A stretch of DNA of 64,000 bases. Origin: a bacterium. Lineage in GTDB: Bacteria; Myxococcota_A; Bradymonadia; UBA7976; UBA1532. The notes under the pieces were generated by a model, which saw only the letters and a program-made list of their open reading frames with translations, made no database searches and was not told the DNA's origin. Location: the NCBI GenBank assembly GCA_030426085.1, contig JAUHYW010000027.1, positions 1 through 64,000 of the forward strand, written 5' to 3'. Below are positions 10,314-17,934 of the stretch, piece after piece. Position numbers and translations under genes: made by a program. Position 1 is the stretch's first letter. Each line of letters opens with the position of its first letter.

Positions 10314-11420
10314 ATGAACCCCCGCACATCCGGCGCCGCGCCCGAACCGCCGCAATGGTTTCGCACGCCCGGGACGAACGCCCGACCCTCGACCCATCTG
10401 ACCGGCGCCGAGGCGGCGGCGGCCATCGCCGGTCGCCCGGGCCTGTTGCCGGTCGAGGTCGTCCCCGGGCCGCCCGCGCGGGTGGTGTGGCTCGACTTCG
10501 GGGAGCGGCGTCTGACCGAGAAGAAGTTCCGCTTCAGCGTCGACGCCCGGCTCGAGCAGGCGCCCGAGGCGACCTGCTTCTCGACCCCGCTCGACCCCGA
10601 TCTGCTCGCGGCCACCGGCGAGCCGCTGCCCATCGCCGGCGTCATCTTCCTGCTGCCTCGCAGCGGCACCACCCTGCTCGCCAAGGCGCTCGGGCGCAGC
10701 CCGGAGAACGCCGTGCTCAACGAGGCGACGGCGCTGCAGGAGGGGGTGATGCAGGCGCTCTCCGACGGCTGGCGATCGCCGATCGAACCGGCGGAGGGCG
10801 CCGCCTGCCTGCGGGCCCTGGTCGGGGCGCTCGCCCGCCGACGGGCGCCCGGCGAGCGGCGGGCGTTCTTCAAGCTGATGACCTTCCACAGCCTCTACCT
10901 CGACGTGCTGCGGGCCGCCCTCCCCCGGGTGCCGTTCCTCTTCATGTACCGTGAGCCGATCGAGGTCCTGGTCTCGGCCGCGCAGCGCCCGGGCGCGCTG
11001 CTCATGCGGGTCAAGGGCGGGCCGGCCGCGGCGGCCTGGACCGGGCTCGACGCGCAAGCCACCGCCGCGATGGACGACGACACCTACCGGGCGACGCTCT
11101 TCCGGCGCTACCTGGAGGCGGTCGCCGGGCATCAGCCGCCGATCGGGGTGCTGCGCTATCGCGACCTGACGCCCGAGCGGCTGCCGTCCATCCTGGCCCG
11201 GGCGTTCGACTATCACCCCGACGGCGCCACGCTGGCGGCGATGCGCGATCAGTTCCGCTTCTATTCGAAGGCCGACGGAGCCGCGGTGCCCTTCGAGCCC
11301 GACGCCCGGGCCAAGCGGCGCGCGGCGCCGGACCGGCTCGTCGAGCTGGCCACCCGCGAACTCGGCCCGCTCGCCGCGGCGCTCGATGCATCCCCCGGCA
11401 ACCTGGGTCGCGGCGGTTGA
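10314..11420 (+). CDS. Sulfotransferase-family protein
   Basis: 368 residues. A PAPS-type 5'-phosphosulfate loop, FLLPRSGTTLLAKAL, has Pro115 to Thr120, and a 3'-phosphate region FMYREPIEVLVSAAQ lies near 205-220. Both are hallmarks of bacterial sulfotransferase-fold proteins. The N-terminal 110 residues form an extra domain that I do not recognise. The family would move a sulfuryl group from PAPS to a hydroxyl or amine, but several P-loop relatives are not proven sulfotransferases. ATG 10314 has AAGG 5 nt upstream. It starts 53 bp before the ABC exporter pair and is likely in the same transcript, which suggests it tailors whatever those proteins export. Confidence 0.65.
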   Translation: MNPRTSGAAPEPPQWFRTPGTNARPSTHLTGAEAAAAIAGRPGLLPVEVVPGPPARVVWLDFGERRLTEKKFRFSVDARLEQAPEATCFSTPLDPDLLAATGEPLPIAGVIFLLPRSGTTLLAKALGRSPENAVLNEATALQEGVMQALSDGWRSPIEPAEGAACLRALVGALARRRAPGERRAFFKLMTFHSLYLDVLRAALPRVPFLFMYREPIEVLVSAAQRPGALLMRVKGGPAAAAWTGLDAQATAAMDDDTYRATLFRRYLEAVAGHQPPIGVLRYRDLTPERLPSILARAFDYHPDGATLAAMRDQFRFYSKADGAAVPFEPDARAKRRAAPDRLVELATRELGPLAAALDASPGNLGRGG

Positions 11421-11473
11421 CCACACCCGGAATCCGCCCCGCCCTCCGAGACTGACGCCGCCCGAGAGATCGC

Positions 11474-13111
11474 GTGAACGCCGACACCCGAGCCCCGACG
11501 GCCCTGCCGGCCATCCCAGACGAGGCGCGGGCGGTCGTCCGCGCGCTCGCCCCGGGCGTCCTCCTGTGCGCGCTCGCCGAGTGGTTCATCGTCGACGCGC
11601 TGGTCACCGCCCTGTCCCACCCGAGCGAGGGCGGCCCGCCGGGTCGCTCGCTGCGCCACTTCGTCGCGGGCCTGCTGCTGATCCACCTGGCCTACGGGCA
11701 CCTGCTCCAGCGCTGCGCGGCCCTCTTCTCGCGCCACACCGACGCCCGGATCCACACGGCGCTGCGGCGGGTCTCGGCGCTCGACCTCGCGACCTTCGAG
11801 CGCATCGTGCCGGGCTCGTTCGTGCTCCGGCTGACCGCCGACGTCGAGCTGGTGCGCGACTTCGCGGCCGGCTTCGCCCGGCTCCTGCGGGCGGCGGCGG
11901 CGCTGGTCGTCGCGCTGGGCTACTGCCACGTCCTCTCGCCCAAGGCGGCCTTCATCGCCGCGGTGTCGATGGGCGTCGTCGCGATCGTGATCATCATCGC
12001 CCAGCTCGAGCGCAAGGGCCGGGCGGCGCGGCTCTCCGGCCTGCGGGACGCGGTGCAGGGGCTCGTCGAGGACGCCATCTCGGGCTTCGCCCAGCTCCGC
12101 CAGAACCGGGCGCGCAGCGACGCCATCGCCGCCGAGGTGCGCCGCCGCAGCGCCGCGCTCGATCACGAGCGGGACGGGGTCGTCGCCACGTTCGTCGAGG
12201 CCCAGGCCCGGGGGCGCTACCTGCTGTACGGCGCGCTGGCCGTCACCGCGTGGACCGTCACCCACCTCGAAGCCCGCCCGTCGGTCGAGGCGGCCCCGAT
12301 CACGCTGCTGGTGATGTACGCCGGGCTGACCCAGCTCGTGGCGACCCGCCTGATGCCCCAGGCCCTCGACGCCTGGGACGCGTGGCTGCGCCTGCGGGCC
12401 GCGACCGATGATCTGCCGCCGATCGCCGCCCCGGACGCGGCCGACGACGGGGCGCACCCGCTGCCGGCCCGCCCCGGGCGCGTCGAGCTGCGCGGGGTGT
12501 CGTACACCCGGCCGTCGACCGCCCACCGGGCGGGCTTCGTGATGGGCCCGGTCGACCTCACCCTGCGCCCGGGCGAAGTGGTCTTCGTGACCGGCGAGAA
12601 CGGCAGCGGCAAGTCGACCTTCCTCAAGGTGCTCACCGGCCTCTACCGACCGCACAGCGGCACGATCGCGGTCGACGGACGCGCCGTGCCGGCCGCCCTC
12701 CCCGGCTACCGGGCGCTCTTCGCGACGATCTTCAGCGACTTCACCCTCTTCGAGCGGATCCACGGCGTCGAACGACCCGATCCGGCGCGGGTGCAGGCGC
12801 TGATCGACGAGCTGGATCTGAGCCGGAAGACCGCCTTCGTCGACGGGCGCTTCACCGAGCTGGCGCTCTCCACCGGGCAGCGCAAGCGGCTGGCGATGGT
12901 CGCCGCGCTGGTGCGCGAGCGGCCGATCCACGTCTTCGACGAGTGGACCGCCGAGCAGGACCCCGAGCACCGGGCCTGGTTCTATCACACGCTGCTGCCC
13001 CGGCTGGCGGCGGCGGGCGGCATCGTGGTGGCGGTGACCCACGACGAAGAGTTCTTCGACCTCGCCGACCGCATCGTGCACTTCGACGCCGGCCGGATGG
13101 TGTGCCGATGA
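11474..13111 (+). CDS. SyrD/PvdE-type ABC exporter, subunit A
   Basis: 545 residues with an N-terminal transmembrane domain of about six helices (residues 25-315) and a C-terminal nucleotide-binding domain. Walker A is GENGSGKST at 374-382 and the signature is LSTGQRKR from 465. Walker B is HVFDEW with Asp489 and catalytic Glu490, and the switch is VTHDEE. The DEWTAEQDPEHR stretch is diagnostic of the cyclic-peptide/siderophore exporter group (SyrD, PvdE, YojI). It sits in the inner membrane and exports a small peptide or amphiphile. The GTG start has GAGAG 5 nt upstream. It overlaps the next exporter by ATGA, so a heterodimer is likely, although each gene has both domains. Confidence 0.85.
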   Translation: MNADTRAPTALPAIPDEARAVVRALAPGVLLCALAEWFIVDALVTALSHPSEGGPPGRSLRHFVAGLLLIHLAYGHLLQRCAALFSRHTDARIHTALRRVSALDLATFERIVPGSFVLRLTADVELVRDFAAGFARLLRAAAALVVALGYCHVLSPKAAFIAAVSMGVVAIVIIIAQLERKGRAARLSGLRDAVQGLVEDAISGFAQLRQNRARSDAIAAEVRRRSAALDHERDGVVATFVEAQARGRYLLYGALAVTAWTVTHLEARPSVEAAPITLLVMYAGLTQLVATRLMPQALDAWDAWLRLRAATDDLPPIAAPDAADDGAHPLPARPGRVELRGVSYTRPSTAHRAGFVMGPVDLTLRPGEVVFVTGENGSGKSTFLKVLTGLYRPHSGTIAVDGRAVPAALPGYRALFATIFSDFTLFERIHGVERPDPARVQALIDELDLSRKTAFVDGRFTELALSTGQRKRLAMVAALVRERPIHVFDEWTAEQDPEHRAWFYHTLLPRLAAAGGIVVAVTHDEEFFDLADRIVHFDAGRMVCR

Positions 13112-14718
13112 AGCTGGTCGCCTTCGTCGACGCCGCGGCCCGCCGGCGGCTGAGCCGGGCCCTGCGCTGGGTGCTGATCAGCCAGGTGGTGGGGCTGGCG
13201 ATCTTCCCGCTGGTCAACGCCCGGGTGCTCGGTCGCTCGCCCGGCGGCAGCACCTGGACCTGGGCCCTGCTGTGCATCGGCGCGCTGGCCGGCAGCTACG
13301 TCCTGCGCACCCGCAGCGCCATCGAGCTGGCCACCGGGTTGAACCGGGCCCTCGCGTCCGAGCGGGTGCGGCTCTTCGATCGCCTGCGCGACAGCCCGCT
13401 GCCCGTCATCGAGCGCGATCATGCGCTGCGGGCCGCCTTCGGTCGGGATCTGGTGCGCATGCTCTCGGTCGTCGACCTGATCGTGCCGCTGACCTACTGC
13501 GCGTGCATCGTCGTCACGAGCCTGATCTACGTGAGCCTGCTCGACGGGCGCCTGCTGCCGGTGTGGGCCGGCATCCTGGTCGCGGCCGCCGCATGGAGCG
13601 GCCCCCGCCTGCGCCGTCGACGGCAGGCCGCCGGTCGGCACCGGGCGGCCCGAGGGCCGCTGGCCGATGGGGTGCGCCGGCTCCTCGATGGCTTCAAGCA
13701 GCTCCGGGCCGACGATCGGGCGATGGCCGACTACCTCGCCGACCTCGACGCGCACGTCGTCGGCGTGCGCCGCAGCGCGGCGGCGATGGCCGACGCCGAG
13801 CAGCGGGCGATCAACGGCAGCAGCACCCTGCTGCTGGCCGGCATCGGGCTGCTGCTGTTCGTCATCCCCCACGAGATGCGGGTCGCCCCGACCGACATCC
13901 ACGAGCTGATCGTGGTGCTGCTCGTCACCTTCGGGCCGGGCATGTTCCTCATCGAGGCGGTGCCCCAGCTCCTCGCCGCCGAGGAGGCGGCCGACGATCT
14001 GCACGCCCTCGACGCGCGCCTCGGCGGCGAGCCGGCGGGCGGGGCCGGTTCGCCGGACTTCGACACGCTCACGCTGGACGGGCTGCGCTTCGCCTACCCC
14101 ACCGACGACGGCTCTCCGGGCTTCACCGTGGGGCCGATCGATCTGACGCTGCGCCGGGGGCAGCGCCTGATGATCACCGGGGGCAACGGCTGCGGGAAGA
14201 CGACGCTCATGAAGCTGGTCGCCGGGCTGTATCGGCCGTCCGGAGGGGCCATCCGGCTCGACGGCCGCCCGCTCACCGAGCAGCGGCTGGCGGACTATCG
14301 GGCGCTGTTCACCGTCGTCACCGTGCACCAGCACCTCTTCGATCGGCTGTATGGCGTCGACGCCGATCCGGCGCGGGTCGAGGCTCTGCTCGAGCGCTTC
14401 GCGCTGCGCGGCGTGGTGGGCTACCGCGACGGGCGGTTCACCACGCTCGACCTCTCGGCCGGCCAACGCATGCGGCTGGCGCTGATCGTCGCGCTGCTCG
14501 AAGACCGCCCGATCCTGGTGCTCGACGAGTGGGCCGCCCACCAGTCGCCGGGCCAGCGGCGCACGTTCTACGAAGAGCTGCTGCCCGAGCTGACCGCCGC
14601 CGGGCGCACGATCCTGCTCGTCAGCCACGACGCCCGCTACTTCCACCTGTCCGATCACCGCATCCACATGGACCGCGGCCGCGTCGTCGAGCGCCCGCCG
14701 GAGGAGACCCATGGCTGA
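13108..14718 (+). CDS. SyrD/PvdE-type ABC exporter, subunit B
   Basis: 536 residues with the same fused layout as its neighbour. Membrane helices lie in about 15-305. Walker A is GGNGCGKTT from 358, the signature LSAGQRMR from 449, and Walker B LVLDEW has Asp473/Glu474, followed by AAHQSPGQR and the SHD switch. The two ATPases are clearly paralogous but diverged, and both keep the catalytic glutamate. The start ATG overlaps the previous stop (13108-13111). The end overlaps the racemase gene by 8 nt. Such tight packing argues for one operon and a stoichiometric complex. The substrate cannot be read from the sequence. Confidence 0.85.
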   Translation: MKLVAFVDAAARRRLSRALRWVLISQVVGLAIFPLVNARVLGRSPGGSTWTWALLCIGALAGSYVLRTRSAIELATGLNRALASERVRLFDRLRDSPLPVIERDHALRAAFGRDLVRMLSVVDLIVPLTYCACIVVTSLIYVSLLDGRLLPVWAGILVAAAAWSGPRLRRRRQAAGRHRAARGPLADGVRRLLDGFKQLRADDRAMADYLADLDAHVVGVRRSAAAMADAEQRAINGSSTLLLAGIGLLLFVIPHEMRVAPTDIHELIVVLLVTFGPGMFLIEAVPQLLAAEEAADDLHALDARLGGEPAGGAGSPDFDTLTLDGLRFAYPTDDGSPGFTVGPIDLTLRRGQRLMITGGNGCGKTTLMKLVAGLYRPSGGAIRLDGRPLTEQRLADYRALFTVVTVHQHLFDRLYGVDADPARVEALLERFALRGVVGYRDGRFTTLDLSAGQRMRLALIVALLEDRPILVLDEWAAHQSPGQRRTFYEELLPELTAAGRTILLVSHDARYFHLSDHRIHMDRGRVVERPPEETHG

Positions 14719-15553
14719 GGCATCTTCGAGTCATGAAACCGATGACACGGGTGGCATGTCCGAATGGCTCACCATCGGCATCATGGGTGGCCTGGGGCCC
14801 TACGCCCACATCGACTTCGAGCATCGGCTGCTCGCCGCGGTGGCCGACGCCCGACGGGATCAGGACTACCCCCCGTGGATCCTCTCGAGCCTGCCGGCGA
14901 CGCCCGATCGCACCGCGTGCCTGCTCGACGGGGGCCCGAGCCCGGCGCCGGCGCTGCGGGAGAGCCTGCGCCGCATCGCGCCGGTGGCCGACTTCGCGGT
15001 GATCCCGTGCAATACGGCGCACGCCTTCCTCGACGCGCTGCGCGGCCCCGGCCTGCCCCCGATCCTGAGCATCGTCGACGAGAGCGTGCGGGCGGCGGTC
15101 GAGGCGGTCGGCGCGCAGGGCCGGGTCGGGTTGATGGGGACGAGCGGCACGCTGAAGAGCGGGCTGTATCCCCGGCGGGCCCGGGCGCTCGCGCCCGATC
15201 TGGAGTGGGTGACCCTGCTCGATCTGCCCGACGGCGAGGCGGCCCAGGTCGAGCTGACGATGCGGCCGATCTACGGGCCGCCGACGGCCGGGGGCTGGGC
15301 CGGCGGCGGCATCAAGGCCGGCACGGCGGCCGATCCGAAGACCGGGCGGGCGCACCACGCCGCGCTCGCCGAGGCGGTGCGCCGGCTGGCGGCGGCGGGC
15401 GCGGGCTGCGTCGTGACGGCGTGCACCGAGATCCCGCTGGCGCTGGGGCGGGATCCCATCGACGGCACGCCGCTGATCGACCCGCTGGACGTCACCGCGC
15501 GGGCGGCGATCGCCATCGCTTGTGGGCGGCGCCCCCTGCCTCGGCGTGGGTAG
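14711..15553 (+). CDS. Aspartate/glutamate racemase-family protein
   Basis: 280 residues of the PLP-independent Asp/Glu racemase fold. The glycine-rich start IGIMGGLGP and both catalytic cysteines are present: Cys100 in VIPCNTAH and Cys238 in VVTACTEIPL. The second half has an unusual segment, PPTAGGWAGGGIKAG, around residue 195-210. The start at 14711 follows GGAGGAG by 4 nt and overlaps the exporter gene. A second Met at residue 16 begins the conserved core. In an operon with exporters it probably supplies a D-amino acid, or isomerises a related acid, for the exported product rather than for the cell wall. The substrate is not predictable. Confidence 0.8.
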   Translation: MAEASSSHETDDTGGMSEWLTIGIMGGLGPYAHIDFEHRLLAAVADARRDQDYPPWILSSLPATPDRTACLLDGGPSPAPALRESLRRIAPVADFAVIPCNTAHAFLDALRGPGLPPILSIVDESVRAAVEAVGAQGRVGLMGTSGTLKSGLYPRRARALAPDLEWVTLLDLPDGEAAQVELTMRPIYGPPTAGGWAGGGIKAGTAADPKTGRAHHAALAEAVRRLAAAGAGCVVTACTEIPLALGRDPIDGTPLIDPLDVTARAAIAIACGRRPLPRRG

Positions 15554-15560
15554 AGCGCTG

Positions 15561-15588
15561 GCTGACGCGGGCCCGGCCCGCGGTCAGC
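15561..15588. terminator. Bidirectional hairpin between convergent genes
   Basis: Arms GCTGAC+GCGGGCC and GGCCCGC+(G)+GTCAGC give a 13 bp stem with one bulge and almost no loop. It lies between the racemase stop and the convergent ligase, whose stop codon is inside the right arm. There is no T-run on either strand, so termination is inferred from stem strength alone. Confidence 0.5.
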
Positions 15589-17092
15589 GCGCCGGCTCGG
15601 GCTCGACGTCGAACAGCTCGATCAGCCGCCGCCGCTGCAGCTTGCCGATGCCGCTGCGGGGCAGCGCGTCGACCATGACGATCTCGCCGGGCACCTTGAA
15701 CGCCGCGAGGTGCTGCCCGGCCAGGGCACGCAGCTCGTCGGCGATCGCCGCTCGACGGTCGGCGTCCGGCTCGGGCGCGCGCAGCACCACCGCCATCGCC
15801 AGCCGCTGCCACGTCGCCGGATCGGGCAGCCCCACCGCCGCGCACTCGGAGACCGCCGGGTGGGTGTGCACGACGTCCTCGACCTCGGCCGGCTGCAGCT
15901 TGAGCCCGTCGACGTTGATCATGTCGCCCAGGCGCCCCAGCACCCACAGGCGGCCGTCGTCGTCGAAGCGCCCGAGATCCCCCGTGGCGAAGCCGCCCGT
16001 CCGGCGGTCTTCGGGCGCCTCGCCCCAGTAGCCGGGGCAGACGTTCGGCCCCCGCAGCATCACCTCGCCGGCGCCCTCGGCGTCGGGATCGCGCAGCCAC
16101 ACCTCGACCCCCTTCGACGGGCGTCCGGTGGCGTGCTCGGCGCCCGGCGACTCACGGCAGACGTTGATGACGCTGCGGCTGGCCTCGGTGAGCCCGTAGT
16201 AGGTCACGAAGCGCAGATCGGGCAGCGTGGTCAGCAGGTCGACGACCACCGACTGCCGCATCGGGGTGACGTTGGCCAGCATGTAGCGCAGGCGGCGCCC
16301 GGCCTTCGACCAGGCCGCGCGGTGGGTCGACAGCAGCCGGGTGATGATCGCCGGGGTCGCCAGGAAGCCGTCGATCGCGTCGGCCTCGATGGTCTCGATC
16401 AGCCCCGCGAGGTCGTCGTCGGTCCGGTCGCCGATGAACCACGGCAGCAGGCGGATCGAGTTGCCCAGCGCCAGGACGGTGTGCAGGTGGCCCGCGCCGC
16501 CGGTCGAGCCGAGCGGCATGAAGATCACCTCGCGGTCGCCGGGGCGCATGCCGGCGATGCGGATCATGTTCTCGGTGACCGCCCGCACGTTGCGCCACTC
16601 GGTCACCACCGCCTTGGGGGTCGAGGTCGTGCCGCTGGTGAACATGAGGTAGGCCACCGGGTGGCTCGGGCGGGTCGCGACCGGGTCGAAGGCCGCCGGA
16701 TCGGCCGGGTAGCCGAGCACCGCGTAGGCCTCGCCGTCGGCCTCCCACGGGTCGAGGGTGACGACGTGGCGGGCGCCGACCGCACAAGCGGCGAAGTCGA
16801 CGTACGACCGCGGCCGCTGGGGGTAGACGTGCACCGCGATGGCGCCCAGCGAGGCGGCGGCGAGGTAGGTCGCGATGTGCGCGCTCTTGCGCCCGAGGTA
16901 GAGCACGACCCGATCGCCGCGCTCGACGCCGTGGGCCGCCAGGCAGCCGGCCACCCGCCCGACGAGATCGCGGAAGGCGCGGTAGCTCCAGCGGGTGTCG
17001 CCCTCGTCGAGGAGCGGCGCGTCGGGGCGGGCCTCGGCGTGCGCGTCGAGCCAGTCGACGATGGTCTCTCCGGGGGGCAGGCCGGGGCTCAA
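15584..17092 (-). CDS. AMP-forming acyl/aryl-CoA ligase-like enzyme
   Basis: 502 residues of the ANL superfamily. Core motifs are FTSGTTSTPK near 150-160, YYGLTEAS, a GDLGRFD segment, GRLGDMINVDGLKLQP and the C-terminal PRSGIGKLQ with the adenylation lysine near 485. No carrier domain is fused. It would adenylate a carboxylic acid and pass it to CoA or an amine. I place the start at TTG 17092, which overlaps the upstream stop as TTGA, with GGAGG 4 nt before it. There is no ATG or GTG in frame before the catalytic core. This gives translational coupling with the HDO-like gene. The binding-pocket residues do not point to a particular acid. Confidence 0.8.
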   Translation of the reverse strand: MSPGLPPGETIVDWLDAHAEARPDAPLLDEGDTRWSYRAFRDLVGRVAGCLAAHGVERGDRVVLYLGRKSAHIATYLAAASLGAIAVHVYPQRPRSYVDFAACAVGARHVVTLDPWEADGEAYAVLGYPADPAAFDPVATRPSHPVAYLMFTSGTTSTPKAVVTEWRNVRAVTENMIRIAGMRPGDREVIFMPLGSTGGAGHLHTVLALGNSIRLLPWFIGDRTDDDLAGLIETIEADAIDGFLATPAIITRLLSTHRAAWSKAGRRLRYMLANVTPMRQSVVVDLLTTLPDLRFVTYYGLTEASRSVINVCRESPGAEHATGRPSKGVEVWLRDPDAEGAGEVMLRGPNVCPGYWGEAPEDRRTGGFATGDLGRFDDDGRLWVLGRLGDMINVDGLKLQPAEVEDVVHTHPAVSECAAVGLPDPATWQRLAMAVVLRAPEPDADRRAAIADELRALAGQHLAAFKVPGEIVMVDALPRSGIGKLQRRRLIELFDVEPEPAR

Positions 17093-17934
17093 CGGGCCTC
17101 CATCCGCCGGTGCAGCGCGCCGAAGACGTCCCCGAGGCGCACGAGGTACCCCGTGAACAGCGCCTTGGCCTGCTCGACCGTGGGGCGCTCGCCGGTGGCC
17201 GCGCCGTAGCGGTCGATCGCGGTCAGCATCACCCGGAAGTGATCCAGCTCGGTGTCGTCCTCGAGGTGGGCCTGGATGTAGCCCAGCGCCTGCTGCCGGC
17301 GGGCCTCGTCGGTGATCTCCATGCGGTCGAGCAGCCGGGAGACGGCGGCCTCGGCGAGGCTGTACTCCGCGTGGTTGTAGATCTCGGAGAACAGGTTGCT
17401 CAGCAGACCCACCGGGATCGGCTCGACGACCATGTTGCGGTAGACCCAGGTCTTGAAGGCCACCGCCTCGGGCAGCGCGTGGCGGTCGAGGCGCCAGGTG
17501 TCGTCTTCGAGGAAGGCCGCCACGCAGTCGAGGTACATCGCCTCGTGGGTGTGGGCGTCGTAGTCGAGGCCCAGATCTTCGTGGCTGGTCAGCGCGGTGC
17601 AGTGGGCGGCGACGAAGAGCGCGTCGCGGGGGCCGCCCTTCTCCTCGGCGGCGAGGCGGTGCAGCCGGCAGGTCAACCCGTAGATGGCCAGCATCTTGAG
17701 GTGGGTCGCCTTCCAGCCGTTGAAGAAGTCGGCCAGCGCCTTCGGCTCGTGGCCCAGGGCGGGCAGCGCGTCGAAGAAGCCTTCGATGCGCGCCAGGGCC
17801 GGCGCGTTGCTGTCGAGGGCCGCGGCGAGCGCCTCCCCGATGATGGGCGTGTCGAGCTGAGCGACGATGGGGTCGATGATCGCGCGGAGCGTCCCGCTGG
17901 GCGCCTCCGGGGTCACGACGGGCTGGCTGTGCAT
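17089..17934 (-). CDS. Heme-oxygenase-like (HDO/PqqC-type) protein
   Basis: 281 residues, all helical in character. The helices carry repeated His/Glu/Asp clusters (SHEDLGLDYDAHTHE, EIYNHAEYSLAE, HLEDDTELDHFRVM) in the positions expected for the iron-binding helices of heme-oxygenase-like diiron oxidases and PqqC/TenA relatives. I cannot assign each ligand without a structure, so metal content is inferred. Such enzymes often cleave or N-oxygenate amino-acid or acyl substrates, sometimes beside an AMP ligase as here. The ATG is preceded by GAGGA 8 nt upstream, inside a perfect inverted repeat (17935-17947). It is likely the first gene of a two-gene operon. Confidence 0.55.
   Translation of the reverse strand: MHSQPVVTPEAPSGTLRAIIDPIVAQLDTPIIGEALAAALDSNAPALARIEGFFDALPALGHEPKALADFFNGWKATHLKMLAIYGLTCRLHRLAAEEKGGPRDALFVAAHCTALTSHEDLGLDYDAHTHEAMYLDCVAAFLEDDTWRLDRHALPEAVAFKTWVYRNMVVEPIPVGLLSNLFSEIYNHAEYSLAEAAVSRLLDRMEITDEARRQQALGYIQAHLEDDTELDHFRVMLTAIDRYGAATGERPTVEQAKALFTGYLVRLGDVFGALHRRMEAR

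Follow-up and report, generated by a model that had tools for sequence, protein, structure and literature searches.

Heme-oxygenase-like dimetal oxidases (HDOs) form a young family of enzymes whose chemistry on amino acids is rich. About a dozen members have been characterised, and some of them act on fatty acids (PMC13108848). In the mangotoxin operon mboABCDEF the HDO MboA occurs together with the ATP-grasp ligases MboC and MboD, and the authors of that work report no fewer than 25 unique clusters that combine an HDO with an ATP-grasp ligase (PMC13185094). Here we describe a six-gene stretch at positions 10,314 to 17,934 of the window, by which we mean the whole 64,000 nucleotides of DNA analysed (contig JAUHYW010000027.1 of assembly GCA_030426085.1, a bacterium of the class Bradymonadia; C81 and G000 are our labels for this contig and its 10.1-Mb genome). 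The stretch encodes an HDO, a stand-alone acyl-AMP ligase (LIG), a racemase of the aspartate-racemase family (RACE), two exporter half-transporters (ABC1 and ABC2) and a sulfotransferase-like protein (SULF). An earlier sequence-only reading had claimed these six genes, with SULF, ABC1, ABC2 and RACE on the plus strand facing HDO-LIG on the minus strand, and their placement and borders were confirmed. The product of the stretch is probably a secreted small molecule that has not been described before.

When an HDO alignment was scanned against 84,980 species genomes, 22 loci were found in Cyanobacteria, Acidobacteriota, Bacteroidota and Gammaproteobacteria, and plasmid records added one Nostoc and one Azospirillum locus; a scan for HDO relatives in viral contigs found none. 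The family is rare: among 377 genomes from the phylum of the window one carries it, and a clear full-length match occurred in 1 of 57 genomes of the window's class and in 1 of 396 genomes of the Acidobacteriota, the phylum of locus L033. A gene of the Asp/Glu-racemase fold stands directly beside HDO in 20 of the 22 loci, and an acid-activating enzyme is likewise present in 20/22, the exceptions being partly contig ends (the racemase match of L035 was disregarded, because its row in the racemase alignment is an HDO fragment). Further comparison showed that HDO and racemase have diverged in step, with their distances between loci agreeing at r 0.92 (0/5000 permutations, 11 loci); the corresponding values were r 0.79 (4/5000 permutations) for HDO and ATP-grasp ligase and r 0.65 (45/5000 permutations) for HDO and LIG. 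Given this co-occurrence and parallel divergence, racemase, HDO and ligase form one co-inherited cassette, not two unrelated halves. Since the whole window genome has only two PF01177 genes, one of which abuts the HDO-ligase pair, the proximity of RACE to HDO-LIG is more than chance.

RACE matched PF01177 of Pfam (E 3.5e-27) and scored 111.1 bits with TIGR00035, above the cut-off of 93.1, which places it in the two-cysteine Asp/Glu racemase family. Both catalytic cysteine motifs (CNTAH and ACTE) are kept, and the solved aspartate racemase 1jfl was matched with an E of 1.5e-34. Assignment as a true cysteate racemase, CuyB, was dropped, since the NF052483 score of 156.2 bits is below the curated cut-off of 190. 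The racemases of the cassette fall into three sequence groups (that of the window, that of the Bacteroidota and the rest), all of which go with a single HDO family, and this suggests that racemase activity itself is needed by the cassette. Separately, two unusual arrangements were noted. On a Nostoc plasmid (L010, 16818-18974) the first racemase part is fused in frame to a protein with adenylation (A) and peptidyl carrier protein (PCP) domains, and the catalytic-cysteine part is missing, unlike in the other Nostoc loci; in a Xanthomonadaceae genome (L034, 10288-11391) a pyridoxal-phosphate-type protein of the alanine-racemase fold follows the four-gene cassette.

Since HDO had no sequence match in Pfam, NCBIfam or the Protein Data Bank, its fold was predicted with AlphaFold2 using 16 relatives (predicted local distance difference test, pLDDT, 89.7). 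The model has the seven-helix heme-oxygenase-like fold, aligning with HrmI and UndA over 219-231 residues. Its structural neighbours are HrmI (Z 19.4), UndA (19.0), CADD (18.7) and BesC (17.8), together with FlcD and PolF, and identity to the best of them is 10-13%. Six residues (E119, H130, E184, H223, E229 and H232) do not vary among 20 relatives, one of which is only 31% identical, and a three-His/three-carboxylate dimetal site is plausible, the last motif having the unusual spacing H-x5-E-x2-H (H-x3-E-x2-H in AetD). HDO is probably an O2-dependent diiron enzyme. In two Moorena loci the HDO gene is broken, by an upstream in-frame stop in L015 (10001-10768) and into two frames in L032 (10001-10830), and the racemase and A domain look intact in both.

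LIG matched PF00501 (E 9.6e-49) and PF13193 of Pfam and carries the core motifs of the ANL superfamily, to which it belongs; it is most similar to fatty-acid and small-acid coenzyme A (CoA) ligases. A stand-alone ligase of this kind occurs in seven relative loci (L016, L019, L020, L025, L029, L033 and L034), across which LIG identity is 32-47%, with values of 47% for L033, 45% for L029 and 42% for L034; plasmid-borne ligases reach at most 31%. Among these loci L033 (Thermoanaerobaculia) is closest to the window for both LIG and HDO. In another 13 loci its place is taken by an A domain of the non-ribosomal peptide synthetase (NRPS) type, in most cases with carrier and condensation domains behind it.

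The A domains beside HDO and racemase in Nostoc, Moorena, Paraprochloron and Bryobacterales have in common the pocket code [AG]GRF[QEY]G[NS]P[IV], numbered after GrsA PheA. They have no Asp235, which binds the alpha-amine in A domains of the ordinary kind, and carry Arg at 239. The stand-alone ligases share the code T(G/F)GL(L/V)NYR(S/C), also with no Asp at position 235, and at the place corresponding to 330 all of them have Arg. Since each set shares its own code, each appears to have one conserved substrate. Given that the fixed A-domain code has no Asp235, the activated acid probably has no alpha-amine in the conventional place, and it may also carry an additional charged or polar group. 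The module after the HDO-racemase A domain has, in Nostoc and in one Moorena locus, the code DFWNIGMVH, which we take to specify threonine.

The relatives use two styles of assembly. All seven stand-alone-ligase loci (7/7) encode a further protein, C2, whose Pfam GSP_synth match is weak and whose model (pLDDT 90) matches glutathione synthetase and glutathionylspermidine synthetase (E 1.9e-14); by this predicted fold, C2 is an ATP-grasp amide ligase. The Bacteroidota unit is a compact run of RACE-HDO-LIG-C2, and no C2 was found in the DNA examined of the 13 A-domain loci. The window fits neither style, being the only stand-alone-ligase locus with no known joining enzyme. A profile for C2-type ATP-grasp ligases (A4) gave no match in the whole window genome and matched three cassette genomes as controls; contig C81 has no PF00668 or PF00550 match, and the genome has only two condensation-domain matches, both weak. 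In a third assembly style, an amine-less acid derived from HDO action and activated by LIG would be joined to an acceptor with no carrier protein, condensation domain or ATP-grasp ligase; sulfation would follow, and then export by a transporter pair of a type that elsewhere goes with peptide synthetases. This is a speculative idea that we regard as unlikely. As a further observation, a glycosyltransferase-family-9-like protein recurs beside both the NRPS and the ATP-grasp versions of the cassette (L010, 25617-26609; L016; L029; L033).

Both half-transporters resemble exporters of the YojI/SyrD type. In NCBIfam, ABC1 matched PRK10522 (YojI-type, E 9.2e-73) and TIGR01194 (E 4.9e-72), and ABC2 matched the same models with E of 2.1e-76 and 3.6e-71, in each case below the cut-off. 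For TIGR01194, which describes cyclic peptide export ABC transporters, the scores were 243.3 and 240.4 bits against a curated cut-off of 286.2, so that by sequence ABC1 and ABC2 appear to be relatives of this family and not members. The Walker A, LSTGQ and DEW motifs are intact in ABC1, and the motifs are intact also in ABC2. Exporters of the SyrD type usually adjoin NRPS genes; that ABC1-ABC2 serve a nearby NRPS was rejected, as contig C81 has none. In the Bryobacterales loci L030 and L036 a SyrD-type exporter follows an NRPS of about 4,100 aa at a distance of 28 bp, and HDO-RACE-A-domain genes on the other strand face this pair at 3.7 kb, as calculated from the coordinates, so exporter and cassette do co-occur elsewhere. 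In Azospirillum brasilense p2, a tandem exporter pair of the ABC1-ABC2 type likewise stands after an NRPS. By analogy with these exporters, export of the cassette product in the window is reasonable. Two other neighbourhoods with SyrD-type exporters were seen. In a Methylococcaceae genome (L037, G392:C46, 257-8545) one lies with a second, different HDO-like protein and an AMP ligase, a flavin adenine dinucleotide oxidoreductase and an adenosine 5'-phosphosulfate kinase; in Fluviicola (L039, G388:C16) one run holds an NRPS, a SyrD-type exporter, a Haem_oxygenas_2 protein, an AMP ligase and a nicotianamine-synthase-like protein.

The sequence-only reading had suggested that the two halves form a single possible biosynthesis and export locus. 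One finding that would have refuted it, homologous loci in which the halves never occur together, was not borne out: the 20/22 loci with an adjoining racemase and the 20/22 with an activating enzyme support the reading for RACE and HDO-LIG, and one acidobacterial locus does so for exporter and cassette. Its further claim, that the locus works without NRPS or carrier protein, held for the window (no PF00550 or PF00668 match on the contig) and failed as a general rule, as most relatives rely either on an NRPS that includes a carrier domain or on an ATP-grasp ligase.

SULF scored 34.7 bits with Sulfotransfer_3 (PF13469), above the Pfam gathering score of 27, and its PRSGTT and REPIE motifs presumably sit at the expected places for binding 3'-phosphoadenosine 5'-phosphosulfate. 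A search of solved structures found no relative. Among 356 genomes of the window's phylum there were nine weak to moderate matches, the best of which (G302, 33% identity) lies close to a contig end with neither exporters nor racemase. Since no counterpart was found in 20 genomes or records with the cassette, in a search that had no positive control, SULF would be at most a local addition to it. The presence of this gene is the sole pointer to a sulfated product. Elsewhere in the window genome (L012, G000:C45, about 134,500-138,300) an AMP ligase-PCP-condensation protein is followed by an open reading frame that by eye resembles another sulfotransferase.

The features of the stretch are listed in the table. 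From the RACE stop to the LIG stop, 30 bp were read in the sequence. The hairpin between them was not called an intrinsic terminator, a T-run being absent. Third-position G+C is 0.92-0.97 in all six genes, similar to that of their neighbours, and composition thus gives no sign of recent import. The flanking genes, for example those for DNA polymerase I and a histidine kinase as identified by reading their translations, appear unrelated to the unit.

Table. Features of the six-gene stretch, in positions of the window.
Feature	Coordinates	Strand	Remarks
SULF, sulfotransferase-like	10314..11420	+	368 aa; Sulfotransfer_3 match
ABC1, exporter half-transporter, YojI/SyrD type	11474..13111	+	545 aa; GTG start
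ABC2, second exporter half-transporter	13108..14718	+	536 aa; ATGA overlap of its start with the ABC1 stop
RACE, aspartate-racemase family	14711..15553	+	280 aa; start overlaps the ABC2 stop
G+C-rich hairpin between the convergent RACE and LIG 3' ends	15554..15594	.	-33.7 kcal/mol; z -2.0 versus shuffles
LIG, stand-alone acyl-AMP ligase	15584..17092	-	502 aa; TTG start overlaps the HDO stop
HDO, heme-oxygenase-like dimetal oxidase	17089..17934	-	281 aa; predicted fold

Taken as a whole, we propose that the RACE-HDO-LIG cassette makes and activates an unusual carboxylic acid, and that in the window the product is joined, possibly sulfated, and exported; we put the probability of this model at roughly 0.6. 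HDO would oxidise an amino acid or a derivative of one, RACE would set or reset the stereocentre of the amino acid entering or leaving that step, and LIG would activate the resulting acid as an acyl-adenylate or acyl-CoA. In the relatives, an NRPS condensation domain or the partner ATP-grasp ligase would then join the activated acid to an amine; in the window some acceptor would receive it, SULF might sulfate the product and ABC1-ABC2 would export it. Comparison of the genomes shows the cassette and its co-inheritance, the families to which the proteins belong, and that known joining machinery is absent nearby; we infer the order of the steps, the substrate, and the sulfation and export of the product in the window.

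Several observations weigh against this model. The window RACE is nearer to 1jfl, an ordinary aspartate racemase, than to its counterparts in the other loci and may have a different task. The two halves lie on opposite strands, so that co-expression is not required. In no relative does SULF or the exporter pair adjoin the cassette in just the way seen in the window, and most stand-alone-ligase loci have no SyrD-type exporter in the DNA examined. One of them, L016, has HDO, LIG and ATP-grasp genes and yet no racemase within 19.9 kb.

One alternative is two neighbouring independent units, in which SULF-ABC1-ABC2-RACE would export or process one product, for example from the AMP ligase-PCP-condensation protein on C45, and HDO-LIG would be a separate catabolic or biosynthetic pair. 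The strand arrangement with its G+C-rich hairpin between the 3' ends fits such a division, as do the placement of RACE in another sequence group than the racemases of most cassette loci and the usual position of SyrD-type exporters beside NRPS genes, the window genome having one PCP-condensation protein, on C45. We nevertheless consider it rather unlikely, because one of only two racemase-family genes in the genome abuts HDO-LIG, and this is the partner seen in 20/22 HDO loci.

A second alternative, compatible with the proposed model, concerns the reaction itself. HDO could be an HrmI-like N-oxygenase that converts an amino acid to an N-oxidised acid (an oxime, a nitro acid or a related one), and this amine-less acid is what LIG or the A domain would activate. 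HrmI is the top structural neighbour by Z, and the A domains have no Asp235, the usual alpha-amine ligand; yet the Z-score of HrmI is tied within 1 with UndA and CADD, the ties including C-C-cleaving enzymes, and no conserved extra Glu of the three-His/four-carboxylate type was seen in HDO about 26-28 residues before E119, although HrmI itself is of the three-His/three-carboxylate type. We consider this assignment rather unlikely. In a third alternative the cassette would serve amino-acid degradation or detoxification: LIG would form a CoA ester destined for beta-oxidation, and the exporters would be multidrug pumps. This would agree with the likeness of LIG to fatty-acid and small-acid CoA ligases and with the fatty-acid substrates of some HDOs, but is very unlikely, as the unit contains no beta-oxidation genes and as the same HDO and racemase supply, in the relatives, dedicated NRPS A domains or an amide-forming ATP-grasp ligase, which points to synthesis.

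The present comparison connects a single uncharacterised family of HDOs with a racemase and with dedicated activating enzymes, in at least five phyla. The small stand-alone operons of the Bacteroidota (racemase, HDO, ligase and ATP-grasp) would lend themselves to reconstitution in vitro as a way to the reaction, which, once learned, would explain the fixed A-domain code. In the open literature we found no description of the window locus and no paper joining an HDO with an Asp/Glu racemase, subscription papers being mostly outside that search; the main texts of characterised-HDO papers that were checked for the word contain no mention of "racemase".

Among described systems, the mangotoxin operon is of the same general kind as the seven ATP-grasp loci of the cassette family, with an HDO beside stand-alone ATP-grasp amide ligases and no NRPS. 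The main text on that operon mentions neither a racemase nor an AMP ligase (PMC13185094), whereas the present cassette has both, and the window has no C2-type ATP-grasp ligase to set beside those of the operon. Parts of the cassette family may already be among the HDO/ATP-grasp clusters counted in that work. ABC1 and ABC2 agree with the SyrD/PvdE/YojI-type cyclic peptide exporters in domain order and motifs, and their tandem overlap is as in Azospirillum brasilense p2; they differ in scoring below the TIGR01194 and PRK10522 cut-offs and in having no adjoining NRPS. McyF of the microcystin pathway is, like RACE, a two-cysteine racemase of the Asp/Glu family, and it is dedicated to a natural-product assembly line, as this aspartate racemase feeds an NRPS. 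The match of RACE to the solved chain 5wxx, which we take to be McyF, is weak (E 3.4e-06), and we know of no HDO in that pathway. Compared with HrmI/BelK, UndA, BesC, PolF, AetD and the other characterised HDOs (PMC13108848), the window HDO has the same predicted fold, and for it a three-His/three-carboxylate set is plausible; it differs in its low identity to the best structural neighbours and, from AetD, in the spacing of its last motif.

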